A DNA stretch of 64,000 nucleotides from Salvelinus alpinus (Eukaryota; Chordata; Actinopteri; Salmoniformes; Salmonidae): contig NC_092096.1 of assembly GCF_045679555.1 (NCBI RefSeq), forward strand, positions 28,218,364 to 28,282,363, written 5' to 3'. Within the stretch, counting starts at the first letter, position 1, and the number at the start of each line of letters is the position of its first letter. The position numbers were made by a program, and so were the translations under genes. The notes under the pieces are model-generated. The model was not told the DNA's origin. It made no database searches and saw only the letters and a list, made by a program, of their open reading frames with translations. Positions 16,043 to 33,334 of this stretch are shown one piece after another.

Positions 16043-19000
16043 TCACGATTCCCCAGGGTCTGACAGGGTGATAGCCTCCACCTGTTCCTGTAGTCCTTTC
16101 TCTTCTGTAGCCGATTGGCTCTCAAGTATTTGCTGAGTTTCTTGATTGGCTCTTGGTTGGAGTTTAGCGATAAACTCACTGCTGGCTAACGCCCCCTCCT
16201 GTTTCGAGCAGGTGATTTTCGCTGGCAACGATGATAACTTGTCTGTAGCAAAAGATATGGCATACCATATTGAATATATTTTATTGACTGTCCATCAAAT
16301 CTGATTTCTTATTGTAGTATTTTTTTTTATTGCAACACACACACACACACAGAGAGAGGGAGAAATACATGGCAGAGCATTACCCCCAGGAGCGACGGGT
16401 TTCATTAGGCGGTTGAGCTGAACGTTCCAGTGTCGGACATGGAAGCTGGCTTTACGTAGCTTCTCCTGAACTTCCTACAGACCCAGAGAGAGGGAAACAA
16501 GGACACGAGAACACAGTTAAAGTTGATGTCAGTTGCACTTTGTTTTACCATCTATCATTTACTAGGTGTTATTGACTTATAGGTGCCCTATGCAACAATT
16601 CCACCTGCAAATAATTCTATAAAGCTTTTTCACTGTGGAAATTATGGCTGCCTAAAGTCCAATGTAGCAAGATTCCCACCTAAAAAGATCCTGAACAATA
16701 GCCTTATCCTGCTCTCCCCTCACCTCCTGCCACCTCTTCCTCTCATCTCCTCTCTCTCACCTCCAGGTGCTGGTGACTCCTTTCTCGGGTCTCTCGGAGG
16801 CTCTGGAGCTCCTGGGAGGCGTAGTGGAGGGCAGAGGGGGCCGGCCGCTCTTCCTTAGCTCTGTTTGGGGCCTCCTCCATGGGGCTGAAGTGGCGGGATG
16901 CCTCCTGCTGCTCCTGGAGGAGCAGACACTGCCTGCTCTTCTCCTCCTCTGCCTGCAGTACTCTGGGAAAGGAGAGGAAGGAGGACAACGGTAGAGACAG
17001 TAGAAAGGGAGACAAGGATAGTTAGGAGAGAGGATGAGGGATATAAGTACACAGAAGACAATTCTACTGCAATAGACAGGGACGTTTGGTGATCTGATCT
17101 GTGTCTTTAGTCTTGCAGCCATGTGTGTGTGTCCGTGTGTGTGTGTGTGTGTGTGTGTAAAATTGCGTGTGTGTGCCTGACTCTCTCCTCTATGTGGGCC
17201 TGTATCTCCGTGTTGAGATACGTTTTTGTAGGCGTGTTACCCTTCTAGCTCCAGCCTGACTCTCTCCTCCTCCATGTGGGCCTGTATCTCTGTGTTGAGA
17301 GCAGCCTCCAGTTTGTGCTGGGTCAGCTCCAGCTCCTGGATCCTCTTCCTCTGCTGCTCGGCCTCCTTCTCCTTCTCTGCCATCTCAGCCTGCATGCTCT
17401 CCCGCAACTGGGGAACACACGCAGGCAGGCAATCAGGCACGTATACATGTACACCGGCTGCATTCTCTCTCTCTCACACACACACTAATCATTTATCTGG
17501 GGAACCTACATAGGTGCACTGATAAACCTCATTCTTCAGTATTATCTTACCTTCTCTGCCTCCTCTAGCTGTCTCTCCAACTCTCTCTGGACCTCCTTCT
17601 GTTGCTCCCTCTCTTTCTCCTCCTCCTCCCTGCGCCGTGCCTCCACCTCTCGCTGGTGCTGTGGGACACAAATACATCCTAGATGTCATGTTAGGTACTG
17701 TATGCATTACCCCCTCTTTCCCCCCTTCTCTTTAATGCCTCACTCTCTCTCCCTCCTGCTCACCTGAATAATACTCTCTATCTCCTGTCCTTGCCGTTCC
17801 TTTTCCTTCTCCAGGTCTTGAATGGTAAGCTCTTCTGATTGGCTGCCGTGGCTGCTGCTGGCGCTCAGGCTGCGCTCCCGTTGACTCTGCTCGCGCTGGA
17901 CCCGCCTCTTCAGCTTTAGTTCCTGGTGGAGGGAGGACTTGCGCTCACCCTGGAGACGGACGGCAGTCTGCAAGGCTGGGGAGAGAAAAGACACACACAG
18001 GAGAATCAGAAAAAAGTGATGTTCCTTCCCTAATGCTTTTCAACCGAGGGGTCTCCCAAATGTTTTAACCATTAAGGCAACAGGATATCCTCTTGGTCCG
18101 AGGACGACAATTAGGCTTGTGTCTCAGGCAGGGCGTTACACTTGTTCACATCCCCTCACCTTGGGTCCATTCCACCCTCTGTCTCTGGTCGGCGGCACTC
18201 ATCTCATAGGTCTTGCTGGTGGTCTTCACACAAAAGAGACAACGCTTCCCATCCCTGTCTGGAATAGCCTAAGACAAAGAGAGGACAACTGGTGGTTGAC
18301 TACCAGGGTGACATTGACTTATCAACACCCCAAGTTCCGCTCAGGTAATCCCAACCATAAATGATCAGTATTTGCATCAGGCTCGCAACAGGTAACCCTC
18401 ATTGACTCTTGTTGTAATCCACATCTTAGTTCAAAATATAGGCCCAATGGTACAATTCTAGACAAGCTTGTATCTATACCAATTCAAGCTAACCCTATGG
18501 TATTTTCAAATAAGGGGTTACCAACTGAGCATATGTGCTGATATTAGAGTCTGATATGAAATCCTGCAGCTGTGGCGTTGGACTGATTCATGTAAATGTC
18601 AGAAGTTTGATCTTGAACTCTGACCTCTCAAACCAATGTGGACATTCTGGTAATATCTGAAACATCATAAATGGAAGAGGGAAAGAGTAAGGAAATTGTC
18701 GGTCGGCCCTGCATTAAAGACCAAAAGTGGTTAAAGAAAATGATAAATAAAAAAGTATACCAGTTTCATTTAACTTCCAAAAATGAACAGCTGTGCCATA
18801 TAGATTGCCAAATAGTTGGGAAGAGATTTCCAATACACCAATTCCATGGCACATGGTTTATGAACTGATACACAAAACAACACCGGATTCAAAACTTTAA
18901 ATTGTTCCATTTAAATGATTATACAAAATTCTTGCAACCAATTACATTTTATATATAGGGGATAAAACCATCTCAGCACTGCAGATTTTGCTGCGAAAAG

Positions 19001-22000
19001 ACAGAATCATTAGATAATTTGTTTTGGTACTGTCCATATGTGGCTTGTTTTTGGTCACCGGTTCAGGAATGGCTGAAGAATTGCAACATTTACTTGGAGC
19101 TAAGTCTGCAAATAGCACTGATGGGTGATTTGAAAAGTCATTGACAATCAATTAATATAATAATAATTTTAGCAATTTTTTAAAATTTAATTTACAATCT
19201 GTACAAACTATGAGAATAGAAAGGTTCAGAACTTTTGTGAAACATAGCACAGTTGAAAAATATATGGCTAATAGAAAAAACTGGATGGTGTTCAGAGATA
19301 GATGGGAGGGGTTGAGGGAAACTTGTCTAAATTAGACTGTGCCGGATAATGATGTGTCTCTAGCTGGTTATAATGTTTTGGATCTGACAGAGGTGGAGGT
19401 GTCGCCATATTTACAAAGGACAACTTAAATGTTTCTGTATCTCTCACTACCTCTGTCCCTAAGCAATTTGAATGTCTAGTTCTAAATGTGGCCCTTGGTG
19501 ATAATGCCCAATTTATGCTAGTTAGAATTTATAGTCCTAATCAGAATAGAAAGAGGAGTGGAAGGCCCCGGTGCACAACTGAGCAAGGAGACAAGTACAG
19601 TAGTGTCTAGTTTGAGAAACAGATGCCTCAAAAACAGCTCTAGTGGACATTCCTGCAGTCAGCATGCCAATTGTATGCTCCCTTAACTTGAGACATCTGT
19701 GGCATTGTGCGGTGTGACAAAACTGCACATTTTAGAGTGGCCTTTTATTGTCCTCAGCACAAGGTACACATGTGTAATAATCATACTGTTTAATCAGCTT
19801 CTTGATATGCCACACCTGTCAGGTGGATATTTTTGTTCAGTATAGTATACCTTTTTTCAAGGATGAGTGATGACAAGAGAATCATCCAGCCTTTTGGGTA
19901 TCTCACTACACCCCCATATGTCATGTCTTGAAATATGCAGACGGATTAACAGACATAGCACTGTTTCAGCAGCTATACTTGTCTAGATGATGTGCTATAT
20001 TGTTTACACCATAACAATCATTGTGCTGCCTTATTGACCTGTCAAAAGTATTTGATACTGCTGACCATTTCTTACTTGTACAAAGGTTGTGTGAAATATG
20101 TTAGATCAGGCATCTTGCAGTTGGTTCAATAACTATCTAATGGAGAGGACACAACTTGTACTGACGGTATCAAATCTAGCTTCCTCAATATTATTTAAGG
20201 TATGCCGCAGGGGTCGATTTTTGGCCCTGTTCTCTTCACTATTTCTATACATAATATTGGTCTATCTGTTAAAACCTGTAACATTCATCTCTATGTGGAT
20301 GATACAGTTATTTACTCCTGTTCCCCCTCTTAAGAGCAGGCCATTCATAACCTTCAGCATGGTTTTGACTCTATTCAAAAATTGCTTACTGATCTAAACT
20401 AGTGCTAAATACTAATAAAACCAAGTTTATGTTGGTCTCCAGGTCTCGTAATATTAACTTTGAGGACCTACATATTTGCACATTGACTACAGGAAAAGGA
20501 GGACCGAGCACGCCCCCATTCTCATCGACGGGGCTGTAGTGGAGCAGGTTGAGAGCTTCAAGTTCCTTGGTGTCCACATCAACAACAAACTAGAATGGTC
20601 CAAACACACCAAGACAGTCGTGAAGAGGGCACCACAAAGCCTATTCCCCATCAGGAAACTAAAAAGATTTGGCATGGGTCCTGAGATCCTCAAAAGGTTC
20701 TACAGCTGCAACATCGAGAGCATCCTGACTGGTTGCATCACTGCCTGGTACGGCAATTGCTCAGCCTCTGACCGCAAGGCACTACAGAGGGTAGTGCGTA
20801 CGGCCCAGTACATCACCGGGGCTAAGCTGCCTGCCATCCAGGACCTCTACACCAGGTGGTGTCAGAGGAAGGCCCTAAAAATTGTCAAAGACCCTAGCCA
20901 CCCCAGTCATAGACTGTTCTCTCTACTACCGCATGGCAAGCGGTACCGGAGTGCCAAGTCTAGGACAAAAAGGCTTCAACAGTTTTTACCCAAGCCATAA
21001 GACTCCTAATTTCATTGTGAGCCCCCCCCCGGCAACCTCTCTTTTACACTGCTGCTGCTCTCCGTTTATCAAATATGCATAGTCACTTTAACCATATCTA
21101 CATGTACATACTACCTCAATCAGCCTGACTAACCGGTGTCTGTATGTAGCCTCGCTACTTTTATAGCCTCGCTACTGTATACAGCCTGTCTTTTTACTGT
21201 TGTTTTTATTTCTTTACCTACCTATTATTCACCTAATACCTTTTTTGCACTATTGGCTAGAGCCTGTAAGTAAGCATTTACACCAGTTGAATTCGGCACA
21301 CGTGACAAATAAACTTTGATTTGATTGAAGTTAGCCCAAATTGAACAAGTCCTCCATTATAAGTGCTTGGGTGTTTGGATTGATAAGCTGTCTTTTAAAA
21401 ACACACATTGACAAACTGACAAGAAAGTTGAGAATTAACATTGGTTTCTTTTATAGAAATCAATCCTGCCTCACTTTGGAAAGTAGAAGGAAGATTGTTC
21501 AAGCAACGCTTCTCCCAGTACTTGATTATGGTGATGTAATCTACATGCATGTGGCAGCCTCTGCTTTAAAACCTTTAGATTCAAACTAGCATTCAGCACT
21601 TTGCTTTATCACTGGGGACAATGTTCCGTACACATCACTGCATTGTGTATAGTTCTGTTGGCTGGGAGTCTCTAACTACCAGAAGGGTCCAGCACTGGCT
21701 ACTTTTTGTACATAAAGCGGTTCTTCAGAGACTCCCCCCACTATATCAGCTCACATATTAACTGAAGATCCAGCTCATGGAATAGACTCACTGTTAGACT
21801 AGACTCACTGCTCTCCATTGGACAGCTTAGATGGAGTTTAAGGGAGGTGATGTGAGAATTGTGTTTGTTTTGATTAATCCTGTTTTATTTCTTGTATTGA
21901 TATTATTTATTGTATGTTAATGTTCACAGGGATCCCTTTCAAATTAGACCCTGGTCTCAATGGTGACCCACCCTGTAGAAATAAAAGTTGAATAAAAAAA

Positions 22001-23464
22001 ATACAAAACATGACAAAGTATGTGGACATCTGCTCGTCGAACATCTCATTCCAAAATCATGGGCATTAACATGGAGTTGGTCCCCCATTTGCTACTATAA
22101 CAGCCTCCACTCTTCTGGGAAGGCTTTCCACTAGATGTTGGAACATTGCTGCAGGGACTTGCTTCCATTCAGCCACAAGAGCATTTGTCAGGTGGGCACT
22201 GATGTTGGGCGATTAGGTCTGGCTCGGAGTCTGCATCCCAATTAATCACAAAGGTGTTTGATGGGGTTGGAGTCAGGGCTCTGTGTAGGCCAGTTAAGTT
22301 CTTCCACATCGATTTTGACAAACCATTTCTGTATGGACCTGGCTTTGTGCACGGCGGCATTGTCATGCTGAAACATGAAAAGGGCCTTCCCCAAACTCTT
22401 GCCACAAATTTCGAAGCACAGAATCGTCTAGAATGTCATTGTATACTGTAGCGTTAAGATTTCCCTTCACTGGAACTAAGGTGCATAGGCCAAACCGTGA
22501 AAAACAGCCCCAGACCATTATTCCTCCTCTACCTAACTTTACAGTTGGCACTATGCATTTGGGTAGGTAGCGCTCTCCTAGCATCTGCCAAACCCAGATG
22601 TCTGTCGGACTGCCAGATGGTGAAGTATAATTAATCACTCCAGAGAACGCGTTTCCACTGCTCCATAGTCCAATTGCGGCGAGCTTTACACCACTCCAGC
22701 AGACGCTTGACATTGAGCATGGTGATCTTAGGCTTGTGTGCGGCTGCTCGGCAATGGAAACCCATTTCATGAAGCTCCAGACAAACAGTTCTTGTGCTGA
22801 CGTTGCTTCCAGAGGCAGTTTATTACTCGGTAGTGAGTGTTGCAACTGAGTACAGAGGATTTTTTGCAGCTGGCGGTCCCGTTCTGTGAACTTTTTCCGG
22901 CTGAGCCGTTGTTGCTCCTAGACGTTTCCACTTCACAATAACAGTACTTACAGTTGACCGGGGCAGCTCTAGCAGGGCAGATATGACAAACTGACTTGTG
23001 CCAAGTTGAATGTCACTGAGCACTTCAGTAAGGCCATTCCACTGCCAATGTTTGTCTATGGAAATTGCATGGCTGTGTGCTCGATTTACTTTTGTGTCCA
23101 CATACTTTTGTATATATAGTGTACTTCTCAGTCTCAGGTACACAGTAGCGATTCACTCAGCCATTAACAAAAAAAATGTATTACCCTAGCCAAGATTTTT
23201 GTGGATTGAAAGATAAACCAGAAAAACAAGATTACCTCCACAACACAATACTGGTCCAATGGAATCTCTCCCTTCTTGTCTTTCAGGTCCTCGCTGGCGT
23301 AGTAGGCCATGAAGGATGGCCTGAGTACAAACCAACGCTCCATCCAGTTCCTGCGCACATGTCCCTTTTTCCACATGTAACCCTGCGAGAGAGAGACAGA
23401 CCGAGAGAGAGGGAGAGAGAGGGATCAATCATTGTCCCTGTAATGTGAATTTCATTCAGCGCAA

Positions 23465-23505
<41 letters not shown>

Positions 23506-26500
23506 AACAGCCCACACACACAGCCCCACATCCATACAGTCCCACCAACTCACCCTCTTGAGGACGTTGTGGTACATCTCAAAGAAGACCTGGTCCAGAG
23601 CCAGACTGAAGGCACCCGCATTGCTGACCCTCAGCAGCCTCCCGGCGCCCATGTGATCCAGGAACACCCACACCGACATGACCTCCTCCTGGACAGAGGC
23701 ATTTTGGGATAGCAGGTCCTCCAGGGGCTTGCCATCCCACTCCTGGTTCATCGCAGTGGAGATTTTCTTCATCAGGTACTCCACCTGCGTGTGTGTGTGC
23801 GTGCGTACAAGTCAGAAAAGATCTTTATCCTTCTATGGGCGAATTTGCTGGGACCCATATTCAGAAAGTTATCTAGTAAAGGGATAATGCTGTGGTCAGC
23901 AAGTTGCAACACATCTTCATAAAGCCTGCAGATGTTATCAACAGGAAACTAAACCTCCCTCCTATTGGTTTATTCTACTCTGACTTCCTGCTTAGGGGGA
24001 GGAGAACAGGAAGTAAGGACCTAGAGTAGAGATATTTTAGAAAATGCACCGGAGGATTGTGGCACCATAATTGAGGAGGACGGGCTCGTTCCAGCCATTA
24101 TTATGAGCCGTCCTCCCCTCAGCAGCCTCCACTGAGCAAGGGGCTAATCGATAAACATACAGTTTGTATACTGCAAGCGTCAAAGCACACAGTGTAGTCA
24201 AAATGGCCACTGGACTGCATAACTACAACTATTCTCTTACTGTTTATATACAGTACGTGTGTCTATTAACCCTCTATTCTCCCTCCCTCTTTTTCAGATT
24301 AACTATTTCCTCTCTACCTGTACATCTCTTTTCTCTCTGAAAGATACTATTTGGCTTTATATTTAAATGTGCCAATGGAGGTCAGTCTCTCCCTGGCCCC
24401 CTCATCCCTCCAACCCCCTCACCTCCTGTGGAATCATGATGAGTGGGTAGTGGTCCTCCGAGAGCAGGTTGAAGAGACAGAAAAGTTTGAAGCAGTCTCT
24501 CAGGGAGCACAGCAGCCCCCCCTGGCCACTGGTAGGTCTGTAGTTTTTCTTCATGGTCATCATCCAGCACAGGTCGTCAAACGTCTCCTTGTCGTATGCA
24601 CCCTCTTTGACCTGGGTGCAGCACACCAGGGGTTCATTTGTTCATTAGTACTGGTAAAGAGTTTTAGATATTAAACGGATAGTTCACCCAAATGACATAT
24701 TGGTTTCTATACTCTGTAAGCAGTCTATGGACAAGGTAAGACAGCAATGCATGCTTCGGTTTTGCTCACAGGTTAAGGAAACCAATATGTAATTTTGGGT
24801 GAACTAAGATCAAGATCAAGTGCAATTCATCTCCTGAATGGACTGGAATTCACTCATCTCAATGTGAAAATCCTCAATTGAGTATGATGGGATGGTTACC
24901 TTGGCCAGTATGTATTTGTTGAGGTAGTTTACCTTGGCCAGTATGTATTTGTTGAGGTAGTTTACCTTGGCCAGTATGTATTTGTTGAGGTAGTTTACCT
25001 TGGCCAGTATGTATTTGTTGAGGTAGTTTACCTTGGCCAGTATGTATTTGTTGAGGTAGTTTACCTTGGCCGGTATGTATTTGTTGAGGTAGTTTACCTT
25101 GGCCGGTATGTATTTGTTGAGGTAGTTTACCTTGGCCGGTATGTATTTGTTGAGGTAGTTTACCTTGGCCGGTATGTATTTGTTGAGGTAGTTTACCTTG
25201 GCCGGTATGTATTTGTTGAGGTAGTTTACCTTGGCCGGTATGTATTTGTTGAGGTAGTTTACCTTGGCCGGTATGTATTTGTTGAGGTAGTTTACCTTGG
25301 CCGGTATGTATTTGTTGAGGTAGTTTACCTTGGCCGGTATGTATTTGTTGAGGTAGTTTACCTTGGCCGGTATGTATTTGTTGAGGTAGTTTACCTTGGC
25401 CGGTATGTATTTGTTGAGGTAGTTTACCTTGGCCGGTATGTATTTGTTGAGGTAGTTTACCTTGGCCGGTATGTATTTGTTGAGGTAGTTTACCTTGGCC
25501 GGTATGTATTTGTTGAGGTAGTTTACCTTGGCCGGTATGTATTTGTTGAGGTAGTTTACCTTGGCCGGTATGTATTTGTTGAGGTAGTTTACCTTGGCCG
25601 GTATGTATTTGTTGAGGTAGTTTACCTTGGCCGGTATGTATTTGTTGAGGTAGTTTACCTTGGCCGGTATGTATTTGTTGAGGTAGTTTACCTTGGCCGG
25701 TATGTATTTGTTGAGGTAGTTTACCTTGGCCGGTATGTATTTGTTGAGGTAGTTTACCTTGGCCGGTATGTATTTGTTGAGGTAGTTTACCTTGGCCGGT
25801 ATGTATTTGTTGAGGTAGTTTACCTTGGCCAGTATGTATTTGTTGAGGTAGTTTACCTTGGCCAGTATGTATTTGTTGAGGTAGTTTACCTTGGCCAGTA
25901 TGTATTTGTTGAGGTAGTTTACCTTGGCCAGTATGTATTTGTTGAGGTAGTTTACCTTGGCCAGTATGTATTTGTTGAGGTAGTTTACCTTGGCCAGTAT
26001 GTATTTGTTGAGGTAGTTTACCTTGGCCAGTATGTATTTGTTGAGGTAGTTTACCTTGGCCAGTATGTATTTGTTGAGGTAGTTTACCTTGGCCAGTATG
26101 TATTTGTTGAGGTAGTTTACCTTGGCCAGTATGTATTTGTTGAGGTAGTTTACCTTGGCCAGTATGTATTTGTTGAGGTAGTTTACCTTGGCCAGTATGT
26201 ATTTGTTGAGGTAGTTTACCTTGGCCAGTATGTATTTGTTGAGGTAGTTTACCTTGGCCAGTATGTATTTGTTGAGGTAGTTTACCTTGGCCGGTACGTA
26301 TTTGTTGAGGTAGTTTACCTTGGCCGGTACGTATTTGTTGAGGTAGTTTACCTTGGCCGGTACGTATTTGTTGAGGTAGTTTACCTTGGCCGGTACGTAT
26401 TTGTTGAGGTAGTTTACCTTGGCCGGTACGTATTTGTTGAGGTAGTTTACCTTGGCCAGTATGTATTTGTTAAGGTAGTTTACCTTGGCCAGTACGTATT

Positions 26501-28205
26501 TGTTGAGGTAGTTTACCTTGGCCAGTATGTATTTGTTGAGGTAGTTTACCTTGGCCAGTATGTATTTGTTAAGGTAGTTTACCTTGGCCAGTATGTATTT
26601 GTTGAGGTAGTTTACCTTGGCCAGTACGTATTTGTTGAGGTAGTTTACCTTGGCCAGTACGTATTTGTTGAGGTAGTTTACCTTGGCCAGTACGTATTTG
26701 TTGAGGTAGTTTACCTTGGCCAGTATGTATTTGTTGAGGTAGGGCATGTAGCCATGTTTTGACACCGGTCCATCGTCATCGTCTTGGAAGTGTTCCTCCA
26801 ATGCCACGGGGTCGTGAGGGATGTTAAACACCGTATACAGGTTGTGGGAGAGAACCTGCGACATGCACACACACAGACACAGAGAGAGAGTGAGAGAAAT
26901 GAAGAAAATGCCTGTGTCAAAGGGAGATTCTCAATTGGTTCGCTCAACTCTGTCCTCAGTTGTCCTCTCCTCACCTCCTTTTGAAAAAGCGAGGACACTC
27001 CTCCGTTTTAAACTAATTGACACTATCCTCAACCACTCTACAACTTAGCGGTTTCTGGGTCACCAAGGAGAGAGGACAGAGGATTCGAGGAGAGGATGGT
27101 CTTTTGGCCAAATGAGAATCTCCCAAAAATGACCCTTTAAATGTATAATGTTACTGTCAATATTACATCTACTATTCCTATATTTATATACAGTATGTAA
27201 GTGGTTACTGAAATAGTTCACAACTTCTAATCATCTCAAATCATATGAAAAAACAAAGCGGTCAATGATAAAAACCAAAGCAAGCAGTGTAAACAACATT
27301 GCAGGCCTCTGTTGACTGACACCCACACACCCACACACAGCCCCCTCGGTGTGAGCATGTCTGAACACCTGCCTGCTATTTCCTGGGATTCTCACCAAAG
27401 GGAGAACGCAACTTGTTTGAACTCGACAGGCCAGAGACTAAGTGAAGGGGAAGATGACTGGGGAAGATGTCTGAACACACAGCACCGTCTGTTTCTGTTG
27501 TACAGTAAACTCTGATATGTTGTCATGTGTACAGGTTGACTGCAGTAAAGGGAGAGGGCCAGTCCTGGACTTTGAAACGAGGGCATAGGTGACTATCGAC
27601 TGACTTTAATGCTCCCATTTCTGTGTGTAGGCTGCCGCTGTTGTGATAACTCACTGAAAGAGGGTTTCATAGATACACACTCATGAGGGTGCATCCATGT
27701 ATTAAAGACACCAATGTATCCAAATTGTGTGTGAGTGAGAATGTTTTCATGTGCATTTTTCTCATACTGAGCAGTATTCCTGCATGATCCATGCTAATTA
27801 TTATTTTTACTGGTGGACTGTTAACTTTATACATGGCATACATCCCTAGATTCAAGCAGAATAATGTATTATAGCCTAATATAATAACTTGTAAGAGGCT
27901 AACAATGTATTTTTTAGGCTATCTTGATCAGATCTTCAAACCTCAAAATGTTTGTTTATAAGGTTATCTAAACAAACGATTATGTGGATATTATTATGTG
28001 AATTGTAGGCTATGAGTAACAAGCTGGCGCCAGTGGCACAGAAGCAATTCAACGCCCATTTCATTATTATAAAGCTCAGCACTTGGAAATATTACACTTC
28101 AAATCTAACCTTCAGCTGGGACTTCGATACTTTGCCGCATTTCTCCATGTCCAGCGATGTGAACGCGTACCAGATGGACTTGAGCAGTTCGGATTGCAGT
28201 TCCAT
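16043..28205 (-). CDS. def6: DEF6/SWAP70-family guanine nucleotide exchange factor
   Basis: DEF6 (IBP/SLAT) is a Rho-family GEF acting below antigen receptors and on actin. Exons: 28205-28110, 26855-26715, 24611-24423, 23784-23554, 23382-23236, 18268-18160, 17975-17764, 17658-17551, 17407-17241, 16962-16761, 16474-16384, 16242-16043. Using the first donor of exon 2, the sum is 1893 nt, 630 aa (human DEF6, 631). Order: EF-hand-like N-terminus ([24 protein letters not shown]), PH domain ([17 protein letters not shown] ... [13 protein letters not shown]), Glu/Arg-rich coiled coil, then [16 protein letters not shown]. The sequence is nearer DEF6 than SWAP70 ([26 protein letters not shown]). All junctions are in phase. 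The oddity is exon 2: its 3' end and donor are amplified 55-fold (see the array at 24900-26714). Intron 5 (18269-23235) is packed with transposon remnants. Which fish def6 paralogue this is cannot be told here. Confidence 0.94.
18675..19340 (+). mobile_element. L1-like LINE fragment, ORF2 3' end
   Basis: Plus-strand decayed frames contain [17 protein letters not shown] and [16 protein letters not shown], the C-terminal motif of L1/Tx1-type ORF2 proteins. It is truncated and degenerate, inside def6 intron 5. Confidence 0.65.
19533..19848 (+). mobile_element. Tc1-like transposon remnant
   Basis: Internally deleted Tc1 copy: GAAAGAGGAGTGGAAGGCCC (transposase DNA-binding region) joins directly to a 3' part, TTAATCAGCTTCTTGATATG, and a terminal TTTTTGTTCAGTATAG. 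It interrupts the LINE around it. Confidence 0.7.
20483..21330 (+). mobile_element. LINE 3' fragment (RT C-terminus and tail)
   Basis: An open frame from about 20476 to 21000 carries [36 protein letters not shown] and [18 protein letters not shown], the C-terminal part of a fish non-LTR reverse transcriptase (L2/Rex1-like; clade not certain). It is followed by a 3' tail ending in AAATAAACTTTGATTTGATT. This 5'-truncated copy inserted into an older LINE. Confidence 0.75.
22009..23124 (-). mobile_element. Tc1-like transposon, degenerate
   Basis: Inverted ends share AAGTATGTGGACA (left) and TGTCCACATACTTTTG (right). Minus-strand fragments in three frames give transposase segments: DNA-binding [34 protein letters not shown] and FQHDN-type [12 protein letters not shown]. 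At least two frameshifts make it inactive. It lies at the 3' side of the LINE stack in def6 intron 5. Confidence 0.8.
23467..23500. repeat. (CA)n microsatellite in def6 intron 4
   Basis: About 12-17 CA units within the 170-nt intron between the 23784-23554 and 23382-23236 exons of def6. Confidence 0.85.
24051..24137. repeat. Truncated CAGTGGAGGCTGCTGA-type repeat
   Basis: Reverse-oriented relative of the repeat at 2705-2872. It ends in CCCCTCAGCAGCCTCCACTG and contains TTATTATGAGCCGTCCTCC. It lies in def6 intron 3. Confidence 0.65.
24672..24806. repeat. Hairpin MITE-like repeat
   Basis: Inverted ends GGATAGTTCACCCAAATGAC and ATTTTGGGTGAACT, the same family as the short copy at 424-490. It sits just downstream (in def6 orientation) of the donor array. 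Confidence 0.65.
24900..26714 (-). repeat. def6: 33-bp coding/splice-donor minisatellite in def6, 55 units
   Basis: In def6 orientation each unit begins GTAAAC, continues CTACCTCAACAAATAC and ends GGCCAAG, so every boundary reads AAG|GTAAAC, a good 5' splice site. The span is exactly 55 x 33 = 1815 bp between the first donor (exon end 26715) and the last (exon end 24900, followed by GTAACC). Units encode [11 protein letters not shown] or variants with V for I and P for L. Variants fall in blocks: 8 mixed IL/VL units nearest the exon, 5 VP, about 14 IL, about 23 IP, then 5 IL. The parent segment is the end of exon 2 ([10 protein letters not shown]). Reading never meets a stop. CTACCTCA is in all but two units. 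Confidence 0.97.
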
Positions 28206-29971: not shown

Positions 29972-31067
29972 GGTTTACATTTACATTTTACATTTAAGTC
30001 ATTTAGCAGACGCTCTTATCCAGAGCGACTTACAAATTGGTGCATTCACCTAATGACATCCAGTGGAACAGCCACTTTACAATAGTGCATCTAAATCTTT
30101 TAAGGGGGGGGGGGGGGGGGGGGGCAGAAGGATTGCTTTATCCTAGGTATTCCTTGAAGAGGTGGGGTTTCAGGTGTCTCCGGAAGGTGGTGATTGACTC
30201 CGCTGTCCTGGCGTCGTGAGGGAGTTTGTTCCACCATTGGGGTGCCAGAGCAGCGAACAGTTTTGACTGGGCTGAGCGGGAACTGTACTTCCTCAGTGGT
30301 AGGGAGGCGAGCAGGCCAGAGGTGGATGAACGCAGAGCCCTTGTTTGGGTGTAGGGCCTGATCAGAGCCTGAAGGTACTGAGGTGCCGTTCCCCTCACAG
30401 CTCCGTAGGCAAGCACCATGGTCTTGTAGCGGATGCGAGCTTCAACTGGAAGCCAGTGGAGAGAGCGGAGGAGCGGGGTGACGTGAGAGAACTTGGGAAG
30501 GTTGAACACCAGACGGGCTGCGGCGTTCTGGATGAGTTGTAGGGGTTTGATGGCACAGGCAGGGAGCCCAGCCAACAGCGAGTTGCAGTAATCCAGACGG
30601 GAGATGACAAGTGCCTGGATTAGGACCTGCGCCGCTTCCTGTGTGAGGCAGGGTCGTACTCTGCGGATGTTGTAGAGCATGAACCTACAGGAACGGGCCA
30701 CCGCCTTGATGTTAGTTGAGAACGACAGGGTGTTGTCCAGGATCACGCCAAGGTTCTTAGCGCTCTGGGAGGAGGACACAATGGAGTTGTCAACCGTGAT
30801 GGCGAGATCATGGAACGGGCAGTCCTTCCCCGGGAGGAAGAGCAGCTCCGTCTTGCCGAGGTTCAGCTTGAGGTGGTGATCCGTCATCCACACTGATATG
30901 TCTGCCAGACATGCAGAGATGCGATTCGCCACCTGGTCATCAGAAGGGGGAAAGGAGAAGATTAATTGTGTGTCGTCTGCATAGCAGTGATAGGAGAGAC
31001 CATGTGAGGTTATGACAGAGCCAAGTGACTTGGTGTATAGCGAGAATAGGAGAGGGCCTAGGTTTCC
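29972..31067 (-). mobile_element. L2-clade LINE (RSg-1-like), 5'-truncated
   Basis: An open reading frame runs on the minus strand from about 31067 to the TAG just below 30138, including the RT catalytic motif [32 protein letters not shown] and [13 protein letters not shown], typical of L2 reverse transcriptase. The 3' tail (minus strand) reads TAAGTCGCTCTGGATAAGAG, then GCGTCTGCTAAATGAC and ATTTACATTTAC-type ends. From published work, RSg-1 LINEs share this tail with the salmonid HpaI SINE. A run of about 20 G lies at 30103-30124. The copy lacks everything 5' of the RT core, as is usual for a LINE, yet the remaining frame is open, so it is fairly recent. Confidence 0.85.
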
Positions 31068-31394
31068 TGAACAACTTTTACAAAAGTTGAGTCACTGTGT
31101 AAGTTAACGTTAGACCTTTGGCTCCATTAACAGACAGTTAATCAGATGAGAGAGATCGGTTCCCAATTTAGCCTAACATTATGTTTACATCTGTGCTAGT
31201 AATACACTCATATACAGTGCAGTGTCGTAAGTTACAGTATATGAATGTTTAGCTAACGTGGGGTAACTAGTAGGCTACAGCTGTCTGTGTTCAGCAAGTT
31301 AACATTCAGTACTTGAACTCAAAACGAACAACTGTTATTATCAATCTGTTAACGTTACTCAAATAGGAGAGAGAAAAGTGGTCAGGACAGACCG

Positions 31395-31846: not shown

Positions 31847-33334
31847 TAAACTCAGCAACAAAAGAAATGCCTTCTCACTGTCAACTGCGTTTATTTTCAG
31901 CAAACTTAACATTTGTAAATATTTGTATGAACATAACAAGATTCAACAACTGAGACATAAACTGAACAAGTTCCACAGACATGTGACTAACAGAAATTGA
32001 ATAATGTGTCCCTGAAAGGGGGGGGGGGGGTCAAAATCAAAAGTAGCAGTCAGTGTCTGGTGTTGCCACCAGCTGCATTAAATACTGCAGTGCATCTCCT
32101 CATGGACTGCACCAGATTTGCCAGTTCTTGCTGTGAGATGTTACCCCACTCTTCCACCAAGGCACCTGCAAGTTCCAGGACATTTCTGGGGGAAATGACC
32201 CTAGCCCTCACCCTCTGATCCAACAGGTCCCAGACGTGCTTAATGGGATTGAGATCCGGGCTCTTTGCTGGCCATGGCAGAACACTGACATTCGTGTCTT
32301 GCAGGAAATCACGCACAGAATAAGCAGTATGGCTGGTGGCATTGTCATGCTGGAGGGTCATGTCAGGATGAGCCTGCAGGAAGGGTACCACATGAGGGAG
32401 GAGGATATCTTCCCTGTAACGCACAGCGTTGAGATTGCCTGCAATGACAACAAGCTCAGTCCAATGATGCTGTGACACACCGCCCCAGACCATGACGGAC
32501 CATCCACCTCCAAATCGATCCCTCTCCAGAGTACAGGCCTCGGTGTAACGCTCATTACTTCGACGATAAACGCGAATCCGACCATATCCCCTGGTGAGAC
32601 AAAACCGCGACTCGTAAGTGAAGAGCACTTTTTGCCAGTCCTGTTTGGTCCAGCAACGGTGGGTTTGTGCCCATAGGCAACGTTGTTGCCGGTGATGTCT
32701 GGTGAGGACCTGCCTTACAATATGCCTACAAGCCCTCAGTCCAGCCTCTCTCAGCCTATTGTGGACAGTCTGAGCACTGATGGAGGGATTGTGCGTTCCT
32801 GGTGTAACTTGGGCAGTTGTTGTTGCCATCCTGTACCTGTCCCGCAGGTGTGATGTTCGGATGTACCGTTCCTGTGCAGGTGTTGTTACACGTGGTCTGC
32901 CACTGCGAGGACGATCAGCTGTCTGTCCTGTCTCCCTGTAGCGCTGTCTTAGGTGTCTCACAGTACAGACATTGCAATTTATTGCCCTGGCCACATCTGC
33001 AGTTCTCATGCCTCCTTGCAGCATGCCAAAGGCACATTCACGCAGATGAGCAGGGACCCTGGGCATCTTCATTTTGGTGTTTTTCAGAGTCAGTAGAAAG
33101 GCCTCTTTAGTGTCCTAAGTTTTCATAACTGTGACCTTAATTGCCTACCATCTGTAAACTGTTATTGTTTTAATGACCGTTCCACAGGTGCATGTTCATT
33201 AATTGTTTATGGTTCATGGGAAACAGTGTTTAAACCCTTCACTTTGAAGATCTGTGAAGTTATTTGGATTTTTATGAATTATCTTTGAAAGACAGGGTCC
33301 TGAAAAAGGGCAGTTTCTTTTTTTGCTGAGTTTA
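31847..33334 (-). mobile_element. Tc1-like transposon with full-length ORF
   Basis: Terminal inverted repeats TAAACTCAGCAACAAAAG (left) and CTTTTTTTGCTGAGTTTA (right), flanked by the TA target duplication at 31845-31846 and 33335-33336. The transposase ORF fills 32050-33072. The element sits inside a hAT remnant. A run of 12 G lies near 32018. Confidence 0.92.
32050..33072 (-). CDS. Tc1-family transposase, uninterrupted 340 aa, active site altered
   Basis: The uninterrupted reading frame has the length of a full Tc1 transposase (about 340 aa). The N-terminal helix-turn-helix half (MRTADVARAINCNVCTVRHL) and the GRPR hinge-like motif RPRSGRPRVTT are present. In the catalytic half the second Asp is kept (LQHDNATSHTA), but the first Asp motif, normally FTDESRF, reads FTYESRF, and the Glu of NPIEHVWD reads NPIKHVWD. 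Two of the three DD34E residues are therefore replaced although the frame stayed open. It is probably unable to cut DNA; DNA binding may remain. Confidence 0.88.
   Translation of the reverse strand: MKMPRVPAHLRECAFGMLQGGMRTADVARAINCNVCTVRHLRQRYRETGQTADRPRSGRPRVTTPAQERYIRTSHLRDRYRMATTTAQVTPGTHNPSISAQTVHNRLREAGLRACRHIVRQVLTRHHRQQRCLWAQTHRCWTKQDWQKVLFTYESRFCLTRGYGRIRVYRRSNERYTEACTLERDRFGGGWSVMVWGGVSQHHWTELVVIAGNLNAVRYREDILLPHVVPFLQAHPDMTLQHDNATSHTAYSVRDFLQDTNVSVLPWPAKSPDLNPIKHVWDLLDQRVRARVISPRNVLELAGALVEEWGNISQQELANLVQSMRRCTAVFNAAGGNTRH

Follow-up and report, generated by a model that had tools for sequence, protein, structure and literature searches.

Tandem copies of a 5′ splice site at the end of def6 exon 2 in Salvelinus alpinus, and which of them may be used

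In the def6 gene of Salvelinus alpinus the 5′ splice site of exon 2 is not single, but is followed by a long series of near-identical copies of itself, and this locus raises the question of which of these donors the spliceosome takes and what becomes of the protein when it takes one other than the first. The window analysed here is a 64,000-nt stretch of contig NC_092096.1, and all positions given below are positions in this window.

The def6 gene and its donor array

The def6 gene was modelled on the minus strand with twelve coding exons, from 28205 down to ~16040, in which all borders are AG/GT (Table 1). When donor 1 of exon 2 was used the model yielded a protein of 630 aa, and the comparison of the spliced product with Pfam returned the SWAP70-type N-terminal EF-hand PF25530 over residues 2-95 (6e-43, 145.2 bits, cut-off 27) and a PH domain (3.6e-19, 69.7 bits, cut-off 25.1), so that with both domains above the Pfam cut-offs the product belongs to the DEF6/SWAP70 family. 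In a search with 466 of its residues, the product shared 97-98% identity with the top-scoring DEF6 representatives from Oncorhynchus, and in a tree of 12 rows (11 of the 16 fetched proteins plus the window model) it grouped with four Oncorhynchus rows (97/95); both Salmo trutta loci (P0004 and P0005) were not resolved against the window sequence in this tree, so that P0008 may be either the orthologue or the paralogue of the window gene. These two trout def6 loci, P0004 and P0005/P0008, lie on contigs that differ in length, and repeat units were seen only in the locus named 'FDCP 6-like'. Further downstream in the gene, the salmonid DEF6 proteins P0004 and P0007 carry six extra residues (AVCVPQ, DVCVPQ) ahead of exon 8, which would fit splicing to an AG placed 18 nt before the usual one; at the corresponding place in the window (17658-17680, minus strand) this AG stands at a distance of 20 nt, and its use would shift the frame.

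Table 1. Positions of the def6 exons and of the donor array in the window
Feature	Position	Strand	Details	Basis
Coding exon 1	28110..28205	-	96 nt
Exon 2 as ended by donor 1	26715..26855	-	141 nt, phase 0	Pfam match (PF25530) of the spliced product
Source of the repeat unit	within 26715..26855	-	last 27 bases of exon 2
Donor 1	26709..26714	-	AAG/GTAAAC	array reading
Extra units	24900..26714	-	55 units of 33 bp, each closed by the next donor	TRF and array reading
Donor 56	24894..24899	-	AAG/GTAACC; alone in having C at +5 and alone without TACCT after it
Rest of intron 2 outside the array	24612..24893	-
Exon 3	24423..24611	-	189 nt, phase 0, common acceptor exon
Exons 4-7	23784-23554, 23382-23236, 18268-18160, 17975-17764	-	within 16384..23784
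Exons 8-11	17658-17551, 17407-17241, 16962-16761, 16474-16384	-
Exon 12	start ~16242	-

TRF detected a single tandem array in the window (24896-26742; period 33, 56.0 copies, 99% matches, 0% indels), the copy number being the one present in the contig as assembled, and this array spans the end of exon 2 and the start of intron 2. On its minus strand there are 56 AAGGTAA sites, with 55 of 55 spacings equal to 33 bp, and the G of the donor GT moves from 26714 at donor 1 to 24899 at donor 56. The 5′ splice site AAG/GTAA, where the slash marks the exon-intron border, is present in all 56 units; the full donor is AAG/GTAAAC in 55 of them and AAG/GTAACC only in the last one. The unit reads GTA AAC TAC CTY AAC AAA TAC RTA CYG GCC AAG, i.e., VNYLNKY(I/V)(L/P)AK. 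All the donors are in phase 0 and none of the units contains a stop codon, and the reading frame remains open across the whole array and through 27 codons of unique intron before a stop is reached. Since this follows from a unit of 33 bp and from the homogenised copies, it has to be taken as one fact and not as 55 independent ones. A chance origin of 56 donors spaced by 33 bp is far out of reach. Intron 2 measures 2103 nt with donor 1 and 288 nt with donor 56, and the use of the latter would add 55 x 11 = 605 residues, leading to a protein of 1235 aa. Hence, the original prediction of a def6 gene with a phase-0 exon 2, of 56 donors exactly 33 bp apart, of a unit boundary that is itself the splice donor, and of a 630-aa product with at most 605 extra residues was borne out.

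The strength of the donors was scored against the U1 end and with a frequency table. Each unit contained a 5′ splice site of near-equal strength, with a U1 duplex of -6.8 kcal/mol for the array donors and -6.5 kcal/mol for the last one, and 4 of the 10 remaining donors of def6 did not surpass those of the array. The modest and nearly uniform strength of the array donors reflects the lack of a G at position +5.

Variation among the units and a possible origin

The 55 inserted units belong to five types, with 23, 21, 5, 4 and 2 copies, which differ at three columns only (CTC/CTT, ATA/GTA and CTG/CCG), and two of these three columns are CpG/TpG or CpG/CpA differences. A Leu-to-Pro change is carried by 28 of the 55 units, and a proline in half of them does not suggest coding selection. 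The donor, which takes up 9 of the 33 columns, was free of variants, a result that is not significant with only three variable columns in the units; selection on the coding capacity of the units was therefore discarded as unsupported. Along the array the types are ordered in eleven runs: units 2-9 are of mixed types, and they are followed by runs of 5, 14, 23 and 5 equal units. Most of the variation is thus found at the proximal end, and the remainder looks recently spread.

The sequences at both ends of the array suggest how it may have arisen. In a first step, a 33-bp stretch that comprised the final bases of def6 exon 2 together with its donor would have been duplicated in tandem, with putative breakpoints at two CC dinucleotides, ATGC-CC-TAC in the exon and GTAA-CC-ATC in the intron behind the last copy; a duplication between both would make the unit exactly 33 bp long and would keep the donor GTAACC in each copy. 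One copy would then have undergone a C-to-A change at donor position +5, from GTAACC to GTAAAC, with the outermost donor staying GTAACC, and the GTAAAC copy would later have been amplified to 55 extra units. In the units of a Salmo trutta protein (P0008, see below) the second residue is Asn (AAY), and GTAACC would read Val-Thr; hence, position +5 of the trout donors is an A, as it is in 55 of the 56 donors here. As judged from these sequences, the A at +5 in both fish points to a single origin that predates the split of their lineages.

Repeat arrays that supply splice sites in other genes

A minisatellite that supplies multiple splice donors in the human interferon-induced gene 6-16/IFI6 (G1P3) was reportedly described by Turri, Cuin and Porter in 1995, and the suggestion that a layout of the def6 kind had not been described had to be given up in view of that precedent. 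IFI6 is a gene unrelated to def6, and it is in def6 that the units are of 33 bp, the donors are 56, and each step of 11 residues falls inside an EF-hand-like domain. According to PMC4526556, IFI6 gives rise to three mRNA species because two of its downstream repeat units serve as splice donors; both genes have a tandem array at an exon end whose repeat units provide multiple donors, and they would work alike in outline. The layout of the def6 array is therefore of a kind already known and its principle is ordinary, and it is its length that is extreme. In IFI6 the repeat units are shorter, at 12 bp.

A second system is human UBC, in which, according to PMC10809524, a tandem AGGT array is spliced and an RT-PCR ladder is visible; the same paper reports 77 unit-multiple introns in human tandem repeats, of which 45 have a unit length that is a multiple of 3, and an 8.4-fold enrichment. 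Def6 resembles UBC in having AGGT at the unit boundaries and a unit divisible by 3, and the copy number in the UBC mRNA is set by splicing. In UBC, however, the 228-nt unit encodes one complete domain and the array contains the two ends of the intron, whereas in all the def6 models the acceptor is a unique site outside the array. The gain of introns by AGGT tandem duplication (e.g., PMC4974935) likewise involves a duplicated AGGT piece near a splice site, but in def6 an old donor was multiplied and a new intron is not needed. A repeat in intron 5 of LHX3 in dogs was considered as a precedent and rejected, since that repeat does not carry the splice site. Among the listed publications joining def6, salmon and splice, none dealt with such an array, as judged by title or abstract start. 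Most of the DEF6/SWAP70 relatives are without the array at the protein level.

Possible use of the downstream donors

The annotated proteins of Salmo trutta bear directly on this point. The 'FDCP 6-like isoform X4' (P0008, 674 aa), which is a database entry carrying the name of an isoform X model, contains three extra 11-residue units at the exon 2/exon 3 junction, and isoform X5 (P0005, 641 aa) contains none there; the contig is 25483426 long in both entries, and at the exon 2/3 point they differ only by the three units. As far as database proteins can tell, this pair fits the use of donors 1 and 4 in this relative. When the motif was counted in the 168 fetched DEF6 sequences, which are representatives standing for clusters whose other members lie outside the count, it was found once in 165, was absent in 2, and occurred four times in 1 (P0008). 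A unit-bearing query against proteins of ~500-1580 aa (4309 candidates, 468 at E <=0.001) revealed units only in P0008 among the 120 matches listed, and among the 7991 best word-sharing candidates no shorter protein or fragment with units was found at E <=0.001, in a weak search that also missed ordinary DEF6 fragments. Exact unit patterns gave 0 matches in collections of prokaryote genomes and viral contigs, as expected for a fish sequence, and this result is uninformative. To count the units in a product, a read of ~140 nt is needed for donor 4 and of ~173 nt for donor 5, so that an annotation built on reads of 150 nt would probably miss anything beyond three additional units, and short reads are easily misplaced within a 33-bp array. 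The evidence would reach donors 1 and 4, both in Salmo trutta.

The length of the exon provides a second indication. Exon 2 has 141-273 nt when it is ended by donors 1-5 and 1956 nt when it is ended by donor 56, and the usual size in the former case, set against the latter, argues that donor 1 is taken first and the next few donors occasionally, with hardly any use further along. Given the exon length that they would produce, the most distant donors are unlikely to be used. The original idea that a downstream donor can be used was sustained in part: the three extra units of the trout X4 protein speak for the nearer ones, and for the far ones it is improbable. We consider it rather probable that this is an exon-boundary donor minisatellite of the IFI6 type, in which donor 1 is mainly used and the next few are sometimes used. 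The spliceosome would mostly take donor 1, so that the normal 630-aa DEF6 is made; low use of the next few donors would add 11 residues per step after residue 79, in the N-terminal EF-hand-like region; the distant donors would have little or no use; and every transcript would stay readable because the unit is 33 bp.

The array RNA could also influence the choice by its fold. The TACCT at the start of the unit is the reverse complement of AGGTA in the donor, and a 5-bp hairpin, AGGUA-AAC-UACCU, with AAC as the loop (-3.2 kcal/mol), is possible at donors 1-55 (24932-26714, minus strand) and impossible at donor 56. The predicted accessibility was 0.000-0.003 for donors 1-55 and 0.025 for donor 56, the median of 213 other GU sites being 0.0115 (quartiles 0.0017-0.0387). 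Ordinary def6 donors gave 0.0 (exon 1) and 0.004 (exon 4), and as the exon 1 donor is equally hidden, a low value by itself is no sign that a donor goes unused. For the fold, the array had a z-score of -5.7, with 0 of 200 shuffles as low, though these shuffles break the repeat; in the fairer control, arrays of shuffled units keeping the donor, 5 of 400 were as low in energy and 10 of 400 hid the donor as well. On these predictions, masking of the donors by hairpins is a lead only. The location of donors without G at +5 in predicted hairpins counts against the IFI6-type reading, as do the lower AlphaFold confidence of the N-terminal region when the three units are present, the finding that P0008 is alone with extra units among the 168 representatives and the Leu-to-Pro change in 28 of 55 units.

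The last two observations, i.e., the absence of extra units in 167 of the 168 representatives and the Leu-to-Pro variants, fit a passive intronic minisatellite, in which donor 1 alone is used, the 55 copies are silently removed with intron 2, and the trout X4 protein is an artefact of alignment or annotation. Short reads that extend less than ~30 nt into the sequence before the junction would fit every donor equally, and an array RNA that is predicted to be more folded than the shuffled-unit arrays could mask the downstream donors. However, in the X4 protein precisely three units are followed in frame by exon 3, and complete silencing of an identical donor only 33 nt further on is difficult to achieve, such sites being used in IFI6 and UBC; we regard this explanation as unlikely, if worth keeping in mind. 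Each hairpin at donors 1-55 exists only because the next unit follows, and a ladder of masked rungs could be envisaged in which these donors are each closed by their own hairpin and the last one is open, so that donor choice would be a random walk over half-hidden sites, with a broad, genotype-dependent DEF6 range of 630-1235 aa in immune cells and with the array length as an inherited dial; this we hold to be improbable. A true locus with one or few units, of which the long ladder would be a false expansion, would be favoured by the runs of 23 and 14 identical units, which are hard to assemble, but the array is not uniform, with its runs of different unit types, the last donor is distinct, and the trout relative has at least three units, so that an assembly artefact is very improbable. 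Finally, dual-specific AGGT splicing of the UBC type, with AAG/GT as both 3′ and 5′ site and the removal of 33-bp multiples leading to a random copy number in the mRNA, has in its favour the AAGGT at every boundary and the enrichment of unit-multiple human introns mentioned above, but it would leave no mark in the mRNA except the unit number, the unit (TACATACTGGCCAAG) has no pyrimidine tract before AAG, the exon 3 acceptor lies outside the array, and neither intron length, 2103 or 288 nt, is divisible by 33, so that it can hardly be credited.

If downstream donors are used as the IFI6-type reading proposes, the additional residues enter within the PF25530 match. AlphaFold models of the trout proteins had a helix at 69-81, a loop and a helix at 87-102 in X5, and one long helix at 70-114 in X4 with its three units, the latter with a pLDDT of ~44-53 in that region and hence of little weight; the mean of the N-terminal block was ~49 with the three units versus 62 without them. 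Longer forms may disturb the EF-hand-like domain. The 11-residue period had also been proposed to form a hendecad helix, a proposal that was abandoned: the helical hydrophobic moment of 0.294 at 11/3, calculated with a hydropathy scale, was matched or beaten by 957 of 2000 shuffled units, and Pro is present in 28 of the 55 units.

A natural gene with 56 near-identical, equally spaced donors is a ready-made experiment on the choice of the spliceosome among equal 5′ splice sites, and the same array bears on the relative weight of RNA hairpins and exon size in that choice. DEF6 is an immune regulator, and an array length that varied from fish to fish could be a heritable cause of variation in protein length. 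The locus also shows how an expanding repeat that includes a splice site can reach a great length with the gene unbroken, as the normal protein is still obtained from donor 1.

Some minor observations were made on the same gene and its surroundings. In 17 of the 168 DEF6 representatives exon 2 is apparently joined to exon 4, with in-frame skipping of exon 3, and the residues after the end of exon 2 are then VEY in 13, LEY in 2, TEY in 1 and VGY in 1. Def6 intron 5 contains, by eye, broken pieces at 22050-22920 (minus strand) that resemble a Tc1-type transposase. A stop-free open frame of ~354 codons at 32053-33114 (minus strand) resembles by eye a Tc1/mariner transposase, and upstream of def6, at 30141-31091 (minus strand), an open frame of ~317 codons looks by eye like the end of a LINE reverse transcriptase.
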